Source of the DNA: Candidatus Falkowbacteria bacterium CG10_big_fil_rev_8_21_14_0_10_37_14
GTDB lineage: Bacteria > Patescibacteriota > Patescibacteriia > Patescibacteriales > Patescibacteriaceae
Direction: 5' to 3'
Length of the DNA stretch: 64,000 nucleotides
Assembly: GCA_002778705.1 (NCBI GenBank)
Contig: PFAM01000023.1
Span: 1-64,000, forward strand
Shown here: positions 1,914 to 29,371 of the stretch, in pieces
Layout of the letters: each line of letters opens with the position of its first letter
Numbering within the stretch: the first letter of the stretch is position 1
Notes under the pieces: generated by a model
The model's input: only the letters and a program-made list of their open reading frames with translations
Told to the model about the DNA's origin: nothing
Database searches by the model: none
Program-made: the position numbers and the translations under genes

Positions 1914-2300
1914 TTGTGTGCGAACGGGAGGGTTGGTCAAGCACAGACAAGAAGAAAATTAGGCAAGTTAAGAAAGAATATCAAACAAGATGACGAGGCT
2001 ATGGCCAAAGTCAATTTTGCCACAGACGCCAGAACCAATTTCCAAGAGGGTGATAACAAGGACAAGAAAAACATTCTTTTACAGATTGGCACGAACCGAG
2101 AGCTAAAAGACCGAAAATTAATCATTACGCCTTATAAATGGCTTATTCCCATTGAGAAAATGATTAAGCACTTAGAGGCCAAATTTATCACGCTCGAACT
2201 AAACAAAACCCCTTTAAATACAAAACAAAACGAGGCTTATACCTCGCTTTGTCGCGAACTGCGGAGAGGGAGGGATATTCGGTCACAGATAATTGTTCGT
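1914..2300 (+). pseudogene. Remnant of large serine recombinase C-terminus
   Basis: VNFATDARTNFQEGDNKDKKNILLQIGTNRELKDRKLIITPYKWLIPIEK...NTKQNEAYTSLCRELRRGRD aligns by eye with the C-terminus of the intact recombinase at 27457-29106 (KREIVFSLGQNRQIINKNLTITPHNWLMPL...NTTQNPGLASLRSRWLGDKD); no catalytic domain upstream. Confidence 0.75.
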
Positions 2301-2365
2301 CGCCACTCACAATTTCCGCGACCCCAGCTCACCATTCCGCCTGCTGGCGGAATATGGTTCCGCTT

Positions 2366-2472
2366 TTCGAATCCCTCGCGCAGGCAAAGCAGTTCGCCTG
2401 CTCCTCTCCACAAATATAAAAAGCCGTCATAAATGACGGCTTTTTATATTTGCGGAGAGGGAGGGATTCGAA
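2366..2472. repeat. Long inverted repeat containing a mirrored tRNA-Ser 3'-end fragment with a 25-nt palindromic insertion
   Basis: ttcgaatccctc[25 nt]cctctcc-a-caaatataaaaagccgtcat / atgacggctttttatatttg-c-ggagagggagggattcgaa. Confidence 0.8.
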
Positions 2473-2539
2473 CCCTCGAGACTCGTTAAAGCCTAACATC
2501 TTAGCAGGATGCCCCATTCGGCCACTCTGGCACCTCTCC
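2453..2539 (-). tRNA. tRNA-Ser(GCT)
   Basis: Acceptor GGAGAGG/CCTCTCC, long variable arm, anticodon loop containing GCT, TTCGAAT T-loop. Confidence 0.92.
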
Positions 2540-6498: not shown

Positions 6499-7374
6499 AT
6501 GGAAATATGTCCAGATTGGCTAGACGCCGATCCTAAAACAGTGCTTGTTAATGATTATGACGAGCGCGAAATAGAATTACAAGCAGCAGTTAAAAAAAAT
6601 CTTGAAAATAATGTTGCCAAGCGGAATGCTGATTACAACAAGTATGACAAAACTTTAGACTTTAATAAAAAAAAGTTAAAAGAAATGGAGAGTCGTAATC
6701 TTCAAGATCAGATTGCTATAAAAAAAATTGATGACAAAATTAAAAAATTAGCCATCAATAAAAACTCTAGACAAACATCTTGTAGTAATCAACCAACCGT
6801 TAGTCGTGGCTCAGTATTCTTACTTTTAGCCAGTTTGCCGATTTTAACTTTACTGGTTATTCTATTATTTAAAGTACTTAATACCCCCGTACTTCCAATT
6901 AAACCCTTAACTGATCTCGATCAGTTAAACATCTCTATCGATAGCTTAATTGATGATGGCTACAACATTGTAGATGTCCAAAATTTGAAAGCCGATGCTA
7001 TTTATCAATATCCGATAGCAGGCGATATGATCTTCGTTCTTTTAGCTGACATCCCATTTCGTTATGGAATGATTGGTGACAGTGATCGATCTATGATTGT
7101 TAATCGAGGCGAACGCTTAGAGTTGGGTCAGAGAAACACGATTTATACGGTTCAAGCCCAAGCTTTAAGTGCTACTAGTTTTGTCTTGATGTTTAAAAAT
7201 AGAGACATCGGACACCCGATTGCTGTAATTACTAAATTTACTGATAGTGTTGTAAAAATGTTTACAAGTATTCTCGGCGTCGTTGGTATTATAGCTGTCG
7301 TGGTTTTAATTACGGTGGTTTTGATATTAGATATTATTCTGCTGGTCAAAATGGTTCAGCGGAGTCAATTTTAA
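6499..7374 (+). CDS. Hypothetical membrane protein with N-terminal coiled coil
   Basis: 291-aa ORF, charged N-terminus, two TM segments. Confidence 0.6.
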   Translation: MEICPDWLDADPKTVLVNDYDEREIELQAAVKKNLENNVAKRNADYNKYDKTLDFNKKKLKEMESRNLQDQIAIKKIDDKIKKLAINKNSRQTSCSNQPTVSRGSVFLLLASLPILTLLVILLFKVLNTPVLPIKPLTDLDQLNISIDSLIDDGYNIVDVQNLKADAIYQYPIAGDMIFVLLADIPFRYGMIGDSDRSMIVNRGERLELGQRNTIYTVQAQALSATSFVLMFKNRDIGHPIAVITKFTDSVVKMFTSILGVVGIIAVVVLITVVLILDIILLVKMVQRSQF

Positions 7375-11385: not shown

Positions 11386-12363
11386 ATGACTGAAAACTTC
11401 TGGGAAAAACTTAAAAAACCAATTATCGCTTTAGCTCCTATGGCTGGTATAACTGACCAGTCTTTTCGTTTAATTTGCGGAGATTTTGGTGCAGATGTAG
11501 TTTATAGTGAAATGGCTAATGCAACAGCTTTAGTTTATAATCCTGCTAAAACCTTAGCATTGCTTCGATCTAGCATTAAAGAACCACCTTTAGTGATGCA
11601 GTTATTTGGGGCTAATCCAGAACACTTTGCCGTAGCCACTAAACTCTTGTCTAATGAATTAGGGGCTCGTAAATACTACTCCGAGTACCGTAAACCGCAA
11701 GGAATCGATATTAATTTTGGTTGTCCAGTGTCTAAAGTTATTAAAACTGGTTCAGGGGCTAAGTTATTTCAAGATATAGATCGTTCTAGGGCGGTTATTA
11801 AAGCTGTCCTTAATAATACAGATTTGCCGGTTTCTATTAAAATTCGCAGTTCATCTGGTAATGTCACCGCTAATGATTTTTTAATTGCTGTAGCAGATTT
11901 GCCTATTTCTGCTGTTATGATTCATGGTCGTAGTTTAACTGGTGGTTTTTCAGGGGAGATTGATTACGAAGTAATCAGACAAGCTCGTCAGCATTTTTCT
12001 GGTATTATTTTAGCTAACGGAGGTATTAATACTCCAAAAGATGCTCAAAAAACTTTGGTTAATACTGGCGCTGACGGCCTAGGTTTGGCTCGGGGAATCT
12101 TAGGTGCGCCTTGGCTTATTTCTCAAATTAAACAGCAAACAACAGTTTTAGAAATATCAGAGCGTATTGAGATTATTAAAAAGCACGCTGATTTAGTTAA
12201 AGTAGATAATGATAATTTTTTAGAGTTTAGGAAACACCTATGTTGGTATTTAAACGGTTTCCCTGGTGCTGCCTCTAAACGACAAGAAGCCGTTAAAGTA
12301 GAAAATTGGCATGATGTCAATCGTTTGCTTGAAAAATGGCTAATGTCTGTACACATTACCTAA
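11386..12363 (+). CDS. dus: tRNA-dihydrouridine synthase
   Basis: ALAPMAGITDQSFR, INFGCPVSKVIKTGSGAKL, MIHGRSLTGGFSGEIDY. Confidence 0.93.
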   Translation: MTENFWEKLKKPIIALAPMAGITDQSFRLICGDFGADVVYSEMANATALVYNPAKTLALLRSSIKEPPLVMQLFGANPEHFAVATKLLSNELGARKYYSEYRKPQGIDINFGCPVSKVIKTGSGAKLFQDIDRSRAVIKAVLNNTDLPVSIKIRSSSGNVTANDFLIAVADLPISAVMIHGRSLTGGFSGEIDYEVIRQARQHFSGIILANGGINTPKDAQKTLVNTGADGLGLARGILGAPWLISQIKQQTTVLEISERIEIIKKHADLVKVDNDNFLEFRKHLCWYLNGFPGAASKRQEAVKVENWHDVNRLLEKWLMSVHIT

Positions 12364-25794: not shown

Positions 25795-27435
25795 ATGGCG
25801 ACTTTATACAGAAAATATCGACCTCAATCTTTTTCGGAAGTTGTAGGTCAAAATCATATTAAGCTCACTCTGGAATATGAGTTAAAGAGTGGTCGTTTGG
25901 CACATTCTTATTTGTTTTGTGGTCCAAGAGCGGTTGGTAAAACAACTCTGTCTCGTGTTTTGGCCAAATCCTTAAATTGTTTAAATCGTCCTGAAGATAG
26001 TGCTGAGCCTTGTAACCACTGTCAAAATTGTTTGGAGATTATTAGCGGTGCCGCTTTAGATATTATTGAAATTGATGCCGCTAGTCACACTGGTGTAGAT
26101 AATGTTCGAGAAAATATTATTGCCGGTGCGCGTGTCTCACCGTCAACCATGAAATATAAGGTTTTTATTATTGACGAAGTCCACATGTTGTCTTCGGCTG
26201 CTTTTAACGCACTCTTAAAGATTATGGAAGAACCACCAGCTTTTGTAGTTTTTGTTTTATGCACTACCGAAGTCCACAAGATTCCATCAACTATTATCTC
26301 TCGTTGCCAACGTTTTGATTTTAAAAAAATCAGCGTTATGGATATCGTTCATAAGCTGGATTATATTTTAAATGCCGAAGGTATCGCCGCGGAAAAAGGT
26401 GTTTTAGAAGCCATTGCTCGCTATTCTGGTGGCCATATGCGTGATGCTGAGAGTGTTTTAGGACAAATCTTAGCTTTAGCTGAACGCAAGAGAGAGGATC
26501 AGTTACTAACCATTACAGTCGAACAAGCAGAATTAGTTATTCCTAGAAGTAGTTTGACTCAAGCAATACAATTAATTGAAATGCTGGCTATTCGCGATAG
26601 TGGTAACGCTATTCGCTTAGTTAATCTATTAGTTGATGATGGCTATGATTTAAAAACTTTTTTAAACGATTTAATAGAGCTGTTAAGACAGATGCTGTTA
26701 TTAAAAATCAATCCAGAATTATTACCAGCTCTAGGCGTGGATTTGGGGGAATTAATAACGACTCAAATGTTAATAGTATCTGAGAAGATAAATAGCACTT
26801 GGTGTCTTAAGGCTTTACAAGTTTTAATGCCGGTGCGCTTGGCCTTTAAGGACACTATTTTTGGCCAATTACCATTAGAAATGGCTATTGTGGAGCTCTC
26901 TGAGGGGGGTGTTTCTAAGCCTACACCTGTCTCACCCACTAGCGAACCCATCTTGACTAGCCAAACTAAAACTGTTATCGTTGAAAGTTGTCAACCAGTT
27001 CCTCCTAGTCTAGGTGTGTCTGTCTCGTCAAATGGCGGAGTAGTTCCTTTTGAATCGACCGGTGCCTTACCTGATTTAAACCGCATCTTGGCTCTATGGT
27101 CAGATTTTATTTCAGCTTCCAAGCAGGCTAGTGCAACTCTTTCATTTTCTTTAGGAGTGTCTCGGCCGATAGCTGTTAGAGGTAACAAACTAATCTTAGC
27201 TTTGAAGCATAAGATTCATCAAGAGCGTTTAGCTCAAGTAGCAGTCAAAAGCGTTGCTGAAGAAGTTTTAAGTAGGCTTTGTCAAACCTCTATGTTAATT
27301 GAAGCGGTTTTGGAAGAAGCGCCGGAGATTTTAGAAGTTGTTGAGCCGGTAGTATTAGCGCCGACAGCCTCGCCAGCCAATGATCCAATTTTGGATGAGA
27401 TGCTTAAGACCTTTGGTGGACAAGTAGTAGGGTAG
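25795..27435 (+). CDS. dnaX: DNA polymerase III gamma/tau subunit
   Basis: YRKYRPQSFSEVVGQNHI, GPRAVGKTTLSR, zinc module CNHCQNC, DEVHMLSSAAFNALLK. Confidence 0.96.
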   Translation: MATLYRKYRPQSFSEVVGQNHIKLTLEYELKSGRLAHSYLFCGPRAVGKTTLSRVLAKSLNCLNRPEDSAEPCNHCQNCLEIISGAALDIIEIDAASHTGVDNVRENIIAGARVSPSTMKYKVFIIDEVHMLSSAAFNALLKIMEEPPAFVVFVLCTTEVHKIPSTIISRCQRFDFKKISVMDIVHKLDYILNAEGIAAEKGVLEAIARYSGGHMRDAESVLGQILALAERKREDQLLTITVEQAELVIPRSSLTQAIQLIEMLAIRDSGNAIRLVNLLVDDGYDLKTFLNDLIELLRQMLLLKINPELLPALGVDLGELITTQMLIVSEKINSTWCLKALQVLMPVRLAFKDTIFGQLPLEMAIVELSEGGVSKPTPVSPTSEPILTSQTKTVIVESCQPVPPSLGVSVSSNGGVVPFESTGALPDLNRILALWSDFISASKQASATLSFSLGVSRPIAVRGNKLILALKHKIHQERLAQVAVKSVAEEVLSRLCQTSMLIEAVLEEAPEILEVVEPVVLAPTASPANDPILDEMLKTFGGQVVG

Positions 27436-27445
27436 AAATTTTTTA

Positions 27446-27519
27446 TCGGGGATCGTCTAATGGTAGGACAACAGGTTCTGGACCTGTTTATCGAGGTTCG
27501 AATCCTTGTCCCCGAGCCA
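27446..27519 (+). tRNA. tRNA-Gln(CTG), CCA encoded
   Basis: Acceptor TCGGGGA/TCCCCGA, anticodon loop TTCTGGA, TTCGAAT T-loop, GCCA end. Confidence 0.9.
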
Positions 27520-29106
27520 GCGTGAACGAAGCGAGGCTAAGCCCGGGTTTTGTGTTGTATTTACAAGGCTCAAAGCCGGTTCTAACTTGGCCAATTCGGT
27601 GTTAAATAATTCTACATTGTCATAGAGTGGCATTAACCAGTTATGTGGCGTAATTGTTAGGTTTTTGTTAATTATTTGGCGGTTCTGACCAAGGCTAAAT
27701 ACTATCTCTCTTTTGCCGGCTTTGTCGGCTTCTAAATAATCTCTAAAAGCATAAGCGGAAAAAATAAACTTCTCTTTGGTTAATTCAATATTGCCTTGAT
27801 TGCCAGTTCCTTTGATTTGTAATTCCAATTTGTTAATGGAATTTTTTAACTTGGTTTTTTCGTCTAAATATTCGTTATCGTCTAATAAATCCCTAGCCCT
27901 CATCATAGTTAGAGTTGAGATATGCTCGTTTAATTCTTTAATCTCGGTCTCTCGGCTGGTTTTAATAACTTGATTATTGGCCTTGTCCACATCTGTTTGG
28001 GTGTCTAAATATTCCAAAGCCCAGTTTAAAAATCTCTCATTCATAGCCAAGCGTTTTAAATCAGTTTTGATTTGTTCGTTTAGCTCTATTTCCTCAACCG
28101 AAGCCTCATGACAATTAGCCTGTTTTCGCTTGTGCGTGCAATGGTAGTAAGTATAGCCCTTAGTCGCTTGTTGGCTCTGGTTGTATTTCGCCTTATGCTC
28201 GGCTGTAATGGCGCAACCGCAGACGCCACAGCTAAACAGTCCTGCAAAGGCAAAATCGTTCTTGTATGGCCGTTTATGACAGCCGTGCTGGCCTAAGAGT
28301 TCTTGAACGCGGTTAAATTCATCCAAACTAATCATAGCCTTATGCTTGCCCGGATATTCTTTGCCGTTATAGGTAATAATGCCAGCATAAAACGGACTAT
28401 TTAAAATCTTGTACCACGCGCTTCGCGACAGCCAGGTATTGCCTTTGCTTTTTCTGATTCTGGTGCGGTAAAACCATTCATAGTTTAATTTGGTCAAAAC
28501 TTCGGTGGCGGAAAAGACCCCAGTTAAATACAAATCAAAAGCCATTCGTAGCATGGCAAACCTCTTTTTATCAACAATAATTGTCCGCTGGCCTTTTTCC
28601 AACCGCATATCATTCAAATAGCCCTCGGGCGCTTGGCCAGGCAACCAGCCCAAAGACACTTTCTTTTCTAAACCTCTTTTGACATCCTTGCCTAATTTTG
28701 ACGAAAAATATTGCGATTGGCTCAAAGCCATTTGCAACATCATAATGCCCTCGGGGCTATTATCAAAATTATATGAGCCGAATTTTAAATCATGAATCAC
28801 GCCGGTGCGGACTAAATAGCTAATAGTGCTAGCGTCTATTTCGTTTCGGCTTAATCTATCCGGATGCCAGGCGATAATGCCGTTGGCCTCGCCAGCTTTA
28901 ATTCTTTTTATCATATTCTCAAAGACTGGCCGATTATATGGCTTAAAAGCCGAATGCCTTTCTTCCAAGACTTCAACAATATTCAAAGAGCCGAAAACTT
29001 CCAAAGCTTTGTCTTTTTGACTGTCTATGGATAAAGCCTGCCGTTCTTCGCCCTCGGTGGACTTGCGGACATAGACAAAATACTTTAAATCTGAATTTTT
29101 AGTCAT
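27457..29106 (-). CDS. Large serine recombinase (resolvase + recombinase + zinc ribbon + coiled coil)
   Basis: YFVYVRKSTEGEERQALSIDSQ, WHPDRLSRNEID, recombinase domain PEGYLND, FAGLFSCGVCGCAITAEHK; ORF extends to 29196 but likely start 29106; stop lies inside tRNA-Gln. Confidence 0.95.
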   Translation of the reverse strand: MTKNSDLKYFVYVRKSTEGEERQALSIDSQKDKALEVFGSLNIVEVLEERHSAFKPYNRPVFENMIKRIKAGEANGIIAWHPDRLSRNEIDASTISYLVRTGVIHDLKFGSYNFDNSPEGIMMLQMALSQSQYFSSKLGKDVKRGLEKKVSLGWLPGQAPEGYLNDMRLEKGQRTIIVDKKRFAMLRMAFDLYLTGVFSATEVLTKLNYEWFYRTRIRKSKGNTWLSRSAWYKILNSPFYAGIITYNGKEYPGKHKAMISLDEFNRVQELLGQHGCHKRPYKNDFAFAGLFSCGVCGCAITAEHKAKYNQSQQATKGYTYYHCTHKRKQANCHEASVEEIELNEQIKTDLKRLAMNERFLNWALEYLDTQTDVDKANNQVIKTSRETEIKELNEHISTLTMMRARDLLDDNEYLDEKTKLKNSINKLELQIKGTGNQGNIELTKEKFIFSAYAFRDYLEADKAGKREIVFSLGQNRQIINKNLTITPHNWLMPLYDNVELFNTELAKLEPALSLVNTTQNPGLASLRSRWLGDKDSNLDKQVQNLLSYH

Positions 29107-29137: not shown

Positions 29138-29177
29138 CCTTGCTCGCCCAGCTTTTTTGTTAGCTGGGCGAGCAAGG
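29138..29177. repeat. 15-bp perfect inverted repeat upstream of recombinase
   Basis: ccttgctcgcccagc-ttttttgtta-gctgggcgagcaagg. Confidence 0.9.
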
Positions 29178-29185
29178 TTATTTTA

Positions 29186-29371
29186 TTAGGATTCAATCAT
29201 CTTGGCAACCACTTGCCCAAAAACTTCTTCGGTCATTGGCCTGTATATTCTTTTGACTAAAGTTATTAGAGCAACCGCCTGTCGTTGAGCTTCGGCGCGG
29301 TCTATGGTTTTGCCAAATTCTTGCTTAAAAAGAATGATGAATTTATCCAACTGCTCGTCGGTAAATTTCAT
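29186..29371 (-). CDS. Small conserved-looking protein upstream of recombinase
   Basis: MKFTDEQLDKFIILFKQEFGKTIDRAEAQRQAVALITLVKRIYRPMTEE...; ORF track extends to 29458. Confidence 0.65.
   Translation of the reverse strand: MKFTDEQLDKFIILFKQEFGKTIDRAEAQRQAVALITLVKRIYRPMTEEVFGQVVAKMIES

Follow-up and report, generated by a model that had tools for sequence, protein, structure and literature searches.

Why would the gene of a recombinase run into a tRNA gene and stop there? This arrangement occurs within the stretch of 64,000 nucleotides from a Candidatus Falkowbacteria contig that we analyzed as a whole and call the window. Its minus strand carries a large serine recombinase (LSR) gene of 549 aa (27457-29106, defined by its ORF, Pfam matches and a 16-member alignment) that starts at ATG 29106 and has its stop codon at 27457-27459, inside a tRNA-Gln(CTG) gene on the plus strand (27446-27519). 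A sequence-only reading had described the tail and stop codon of this LSR as antisense to an intact tRNA-Gln, and ARAGORN and translation of the ORF bear this out. We consider it very likely that the window contains the attL end of a CPR element whose LSR, with attP in the 3' end of its own gene, targets the 3' ends of tRNA genes and swaps its tail.

A recombinase gene that ends within a tRNA

Translated from the minus strand, the C-terminus of the window LSR is SRWLGDKDSNLDKQVQNLLSYH, also given as WLGDKDSNLDKQVQNLLSYH, followed by the stop. Its final 20 codons are antisense to tRNA-Gln: W530 is encoded by TGG, which complements the CCA carried by the tRNA gene, and every later codon is antisense tRNA. 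The protein has the domain content that defines a large serine recombinase/integrase, with Resolvase, Recombinase and Zn_ribbon_recom in that order, all above Pfam cut-offs, and with long helices within residues 357-459 of the AlphaFold model that match the coiled coil of such enzymes. Just outside the tRNA, the element side of attL (P' arm; 27520-27620, minus strand, outer limit approximate) codes for a conserved NEALxSLxxxW region in our alignments A1 and A2. Directly upstream of the LSR lies a conserved companion, a 61-aa ORF (29186-29371, minus strand) whose translation begins MKFTDEQLDKFI; homologues occur in the same orientation and at most 1.5 kb upstream of 21 LSR entries, and its product is a candidate accessory or directionality factor. 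A perfect 16-bp hairpin sits between this ORF and the LSR start codon (29138-29177). We also suspected an element-coded terminator for tRNA-Gln, and a scan found none adjoining the tRNA.

The tRNA, which is intact and encodes its CCA, can be recognized as the attB target from the synteny of dnaX and tRNA-Gln. The host gene dnaX (25795-27435, plus strand) marks the left flank of the site and is kept beside tRNA-Gln in the family. In 11 same-family relatives dnaX is followed by tRNA-Gln(CTG), and in none of these 11 does an LSR lie at the tRNA 3' end, and therefore the tRNA is the host's and the LSR side is the element's. The locus thus combines an intact tRNA with sites that comparison establishes as empty in relatives, as expected for a tRNA-targeted element. 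One relative without an LSR has two tandem tRNA-Gln(CTG) genes downstream of dnaX (L260, G034:C39, 868-1064), which is a target-site duplication.

The far end of the window element is less clear. Neither a repeat of the tRNA 3' end nor an orphan P arm was found in the window or on the whole 133.6-kb contig, and so the displaced tRNA fragment that would mark attR was not detected for this copy; in relatives it was found as a short core. Downstream synteny with relatives was tried as a guide to the right boundary and was too variable to set one. The window copy may be decayed.

Elsewhere in the 0.91-Mb host genome, three further LSR copies or remnants end at or beside tRNA-Asp, tRNA-Ser(CGA) and tRNA-Ser(GCT). 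The decayed remnant adjoining tRNA-Ser(GCT) lies within the window (1914-2539) and includes a degenerate second copy of the 3' end of this tRNA (GCGGAGAGGGAGGGAT at 2251-2270, repeated at 2452). It is an older insertion of the same kind as the LSR at tRNA-Gln.

tRNA-coded tails among related recombinases

Relatives drawn from the same order, from public genomes and from viral contigs provided 176 distinct complete LSRs, mostly from Patescibacteria/CPR and mostly from metagenome-assembled genomes; they share ancestry and are not independent. More than half (105/176) end in or run through antisense tRNA, at 17 isotypes. Among these, 79 stop inside the antisense tRNA and 26 read through it, while one further LSR stops just before a tRNA, 17 are cut off by a contig edge and for 53 ARAGORN detects no tRNA at the site. 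Where an LSR reaches a recognizable T-loop, it nearly always reads it in the same frame (76/82), which yields a DSNP-like string. The LSR-tRNA arrangement explains the presence of such tRNA-antisense strings at protein ends in CPR genomes. Comparison at this scale establishes both the anatomy of the arrangement and its generality.

In alignment A1, which has 16 members, the conserved LSR protein stops just before the tRNA, and a comparison of the tails beyond this point finds that they change with the tRNA used and vary greatly in length and sequence. The sequence-only reading had proposed that the tRNA supplies the tail and the stop codon, in which case C-termini should track the tRNA used and related genomes should have empty tRNA-Gln sites. 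The tRNA-dependent tails and the 11 empty sites agree with both expectations and support the proposal. Neither of two cases that would have spoken against it was found: related genomes with this recombinase in the same place and no empty sites, and homologues with the same C-terminus away from any tRNA.

Several loci stand apart from this pattern. In four of the 53 LSRs not at a detected tRNA (L136, L127, L106 and L111), Rfam identifies a group I intron directly beside the LSR end, at about 11500-11900 on the minus strand. A T-arm-like sequence is visible in these loci and the tails read through it into the intron; given the intron and the T-arm-like sequence, these are probably intron-split tRNAs. 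At another locus (L207, G007:C6:6000-25900), tail arms at 6914, 8092, 11161 and 13532, in a region adjoining tRNA-Gln, suggest repeated insertion and decay at one tRNA. Chromosomal LSRs with intact tails from outside CPR have no tRNA in their available flank, a point against our reading. Plasmid and phage collections contained distant LSRs only, and a search of 348 alphaproteobacterial relatives added one further close LSR. An LSR from Alphaproteobacteria whose tail, WDSNRR, resembles tRNA-Ser lies beside an apparent 3' tRNA fragment only (L291, from G370, and L138), and its 77% identical relative L103 carries a VRT tail.

In relatives, the attachment site lies within the recombinase gene

Comparing both ends of related elements places attP within the 3' coding end of the LSR. 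Copies that are not at a tRNA keep an element-coded tail with the pattern W...VRTxF. Because attP lies in the coding end and the crossover falls in the CCA/acceptor end of the tRNA, the element-coded tail is swapped for a tRNA-coded one. Integration would cut the LSR gene in this way, and orphan tail codons are thus expected at the far end of the element. Orphan arms with a core matching the tRNA were found there for L035 (tRNA-Gln; LLGVADDVRTKIMKI, then a stop), for L043 (tRNA-Trp; LHGIVDSVRTKIEQ, then a stop) and for L058 (tRNA-Ser; beginning WRRVVDDVRTLIEANH), whose genome has a single LSR match. Further arms have cores matching tRNA-Asn (L063), tRNA-Ser (L066 and L182), tRNA-His (L076) and tRNA-Gln (L059 and L237). 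In a permuted-core scan, which accepts a match as weak as 5 bp where strong matches are 8-10 bp, six loci were observed against a mean of 1.16 and a maximum of 5 over 2000 permutations, a modest signal.

Two other kinds of locus bear on the free form. In tandem arrays (L035, L113, L129, L183 and L102), the tail of the second LSR is intact and its core resembles the one in the downstream tRNA, which is what insertion of one element into another's attL would produce. An alphaproteobacterial contig of 109,335 bp (G151:C12), with a period of 95,010 bp and identical ends of 14,325 bp, carries an intact-tailed LSR and looks like a circular form; a tandem duplication would look alike. The existence of the other tail in relatives is thus established by comparison, and integrated and free forms would encode different C-termini, as seen in these relatives; for the window copy itself, we infer the free tail from them. 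The suggestion of the sequence-only reading that the excised form would have a different C-terminus is therefore borne out among relatives by the orphan attR halves, the tandem junctions and the circular contig. Across phyla, free tails have a [VI]RTxF pattern in common and look alike beyond the att core.

A sister subfamily of LSRs is organized differently. In about 30 cases, inverted repeats of ~80-165 bp, most of them 95-100% identical, lie on either side of the gene: one is the LSR 3' end as far as the att core, and the other, ~60-120 bp 5' of the gene, is its inverted counterpart with the intact tail arm (L132:9201-9260, L126, L115, L031, L029, L027, L104, L242, L121 and others). No inverted copy was seen beside a tRNA in 33 cases. 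Inversion between such repeats would swap the LSR tail while the element stays integrated.

Crossover geometry and the T-loop

These inverted copies of the LSR 3' end with an intact arm provided 20 attP arms defined without reference to any motif. Counting from the TGG, arm and tRNA are identical at offsets 0-5, and the first divergence is at offset 6 in 12 of the 20. Within the arms, the sequence that best matches GTTCGAAC is at offset 21 in 15/20 and at offset 20-22 in 18/20. In the tRNA, the T-loop motif (TTCGAAC) is at offset 16, which is closer to the crossover by 5 bp than its counterpart in attP. The LI integrase has its zinc-ribbon motif 5 bp closer to the center in attB than in attP (PMC3783163), and the offsets of 21 and 16 in LSR relatives correspond to this 5-bp shift. 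Comparison establishes the motif offset, and a short core (~6 bp) with a 5-bp motif shift, as expected of a large serine integrase, is seen in the sequences of relatives, though not in the window copy. We had at first placed the crossover in the T-loop, a placement that we dropped on two grounds: there attP is 5 bp out of step with the tRNA, and the two part as early as offset 6.

By analogy with relatives, the crossover in the window copy would lie in the core common to attP and attB, TGGCTC (27514-27519, minus strand), which spans the CCA and the start of the acceptor stem. From the crossover position of relatives, the host-coded end of the LSR would be 27457-27513 on the same strand, or about residues 532-549 plus the stop (~18 codons). 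Within it, the T-loop motif ATTCGAACC (27495-27503, minus strand; offset 16-24 from TGG) is the proposed zinc-ribbon motif of attB. Hosts of 56-64% G+C still have GTTCGAA, and it persists in two cases where the third residue of the tail pattern is no longer Thr (VRS in L087, VRK in L094); it is thus under constraint at the DNA level. The LSR zinc ribbon probably reads the T-loop common to nearly all tRNAs.

We therefore propose the following sequence of events, in which the part of the window LSR itself is deduced from its relatives. In the free element, attP would form part of the recombinase gene's 3' end. The LSR would recombine it with a tRNA gene at the CCA/acceptor-stem end, where the zinc ribbon of the enzyme probably reads the near-universal TTCGAAC, and recognition of the T-loop would open many tRNAs to relatives. 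Once integrated, the element would contribute the last few bases of the tRNA, the antisense tRNA would give the LSR its last ~18 codons and stop, and the original tail codons would end up at the far end (attR). A general rule that the element provides the CCA does not hold. On the simplest view, the tail swap follows from the position of attP.

Does the exchanged tail have a function?

The overlap could in principle be accidental, an old recombinase gene having come to lie against a neighboring tRNA with no integration there, and the missing attR of the window element fits this idea. We regard it as exceedingly improbable, given 105 of 176 relatives at 17 isotypes, four cases in the host genome, empty sites, and cores that match both at the far ends of elements and in tandem junctions. 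With integration accepted, the exchanged tail is fairly likely to be a neutral by-product: attP would overlap the 3' end of the gene because the enzyme's sites adjoin it, the region past about residue 530 would be dispensable and any tail that the target supplies would be tolerated. Consistent with this, the conserved protein ends just before the tRNA, tails of any length from 17 isotypes are tolerated, and the tRNA-coded tail is predicted to be disordered (residues 531-549 of the window LSR have pLDDT below 50 in the AlphaFold model). Less easily accommodated are the retention of the arrangement over a very wide family and the likeness of free tails beyond the core.

The same likeness invites the idea of a functional switch, which would add to the attP/tRNA anatomy rather than replace it: the free W...VRTxF form would be competent for integration, and the tRNA-tailed form would be weakened or biased, stabilizing the integrated state. 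According to PMC4701971, the C-terminus that phage Mx8 integrase acquires on integration makes it less active, and a loss of activity is suspected likewise for the serine integrases of rumA ICEs. The [VI]RTxF pattern across phyla and the inverted intact tail copy kept beside the gene in the sister subfamily point in the same direction. Against a switch, length and sequence are free to vary among tails at tRNAs, and AlphaFold gives low confidence both to the window tail and to the element-coded tail of a relative, both predicted to be disordered, and so does not separate the two states. We had taken the conserved VRT as proof of a protein motif, an argument that we abandoned since most of this conservation is accounted for by the DNA motif and the outcome of codon tests is ambiguous: free-arm variation is lowest at second codon positions, third positions outside the motif do not exceed first ones in variability, and beyond the att site a block of seven codons has 9 synonymous and 14 nonsynonymous differences. 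We consider a switch possible but doubtful.

Relation to known systems and implications

Tail exchange of this kind has precedents in rumA ICEs, Mx8, SSV1-type elements and BPs, and is thus of a known kind. In streptococcal rumA ICEs, which use a single serine integrase, the 3' part of the integrase gene is exchanged with the target on integration (PMC4701971); as in our LSRs, the att site is in the integrase's own 3' end and the excised and integrated C-termini differ. Whereas rumA ICEs target a protein gene in Streptococcus, the LSRs are at tRNA 3' ends of 17 isotypes, mostly in CPR, and the tRNA is restored and read antisense. Integration of phage Mx8 replaces 112 C-terminal integrase residues by 13 and reduces activity, as cited in PMC4701971; there too attP is inside the integrase gene and the C-terminus is replaced, but by that account the enzyme is a tyrosine integrase, unlike the window LSR, and its loss of activity was measured. 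Archaeal SSV1-type suicidal integrases likewise have the target site in an integrase gene that integration alters (PMC8371274). Those tyrosine enzymes are split into two inactive pieces, whereas the LSR exchanges a short tail only; the window LSR is of the serine family with all conserved domains in one ORF and is not of the SSV1 type. In the integration-dependent immunity of mycobacteriophage BPs, attP is in a phage gene, and integration at a tRNA changes the C-terminus and supplies the stop (PMC9262239); unlike in LSRs, it is the repressor that is altered, the phage uses a tyrosine-family integrase, and what the repressor loses is a proteolysis tag.

Two further comparisons concern the target. 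tRNA-targeted genomic islands (Islander, PMC4383910) resemble the LSR elements in that attB is part of a tRNA gene and the 3' end of this gene is restored by the element, and differ in using tyrosine integrases and longer tRNA fragments. The A118-family LI integrase (PMC3783163) shares the zinc-ribbon shift with LSR relatives, but the LI/A118 target is not a tRNA (A118 is in comK), and binding was measured for LI and is inferred for LSRs. Serine integrases were stated in 2014 not to target tRNAs (PMC4383910), and the later open-licence papers examined contain no report of tRNA-targeting serine integrases. The view that coding through the target is notable therefore holds in part: rumA ICEs and Mx8 mean that it is not unique. 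Within the open-licence literature, the new features are tRNA targets for serine integrases, the breadth of isotypes and the T-loop/zinc-ribbon geometry.

The fullest version of this picture, a large, mainly CPR group of tRNA-targeting serine integrases that use the T-loop as their zinc-ribbon attB motif and regulate themselves by tail exchange, an active element-coded tail giving way to a tRNA-coded one on integration, with inversion in the sister subfamily able to restore the tail, is in our judgment rather unlikely as a whole. Reading of the T-loop by the zinc ribbon would be a simple rule for how tRNAs serve as attB. Little is known of the mobile elements of uncultured CPR bacteria, and this rule would predict attP/attB pairs in them. 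The LSR-tRNA system also makes self-control of a serine integrase through an integration-edited C-terminus testable.
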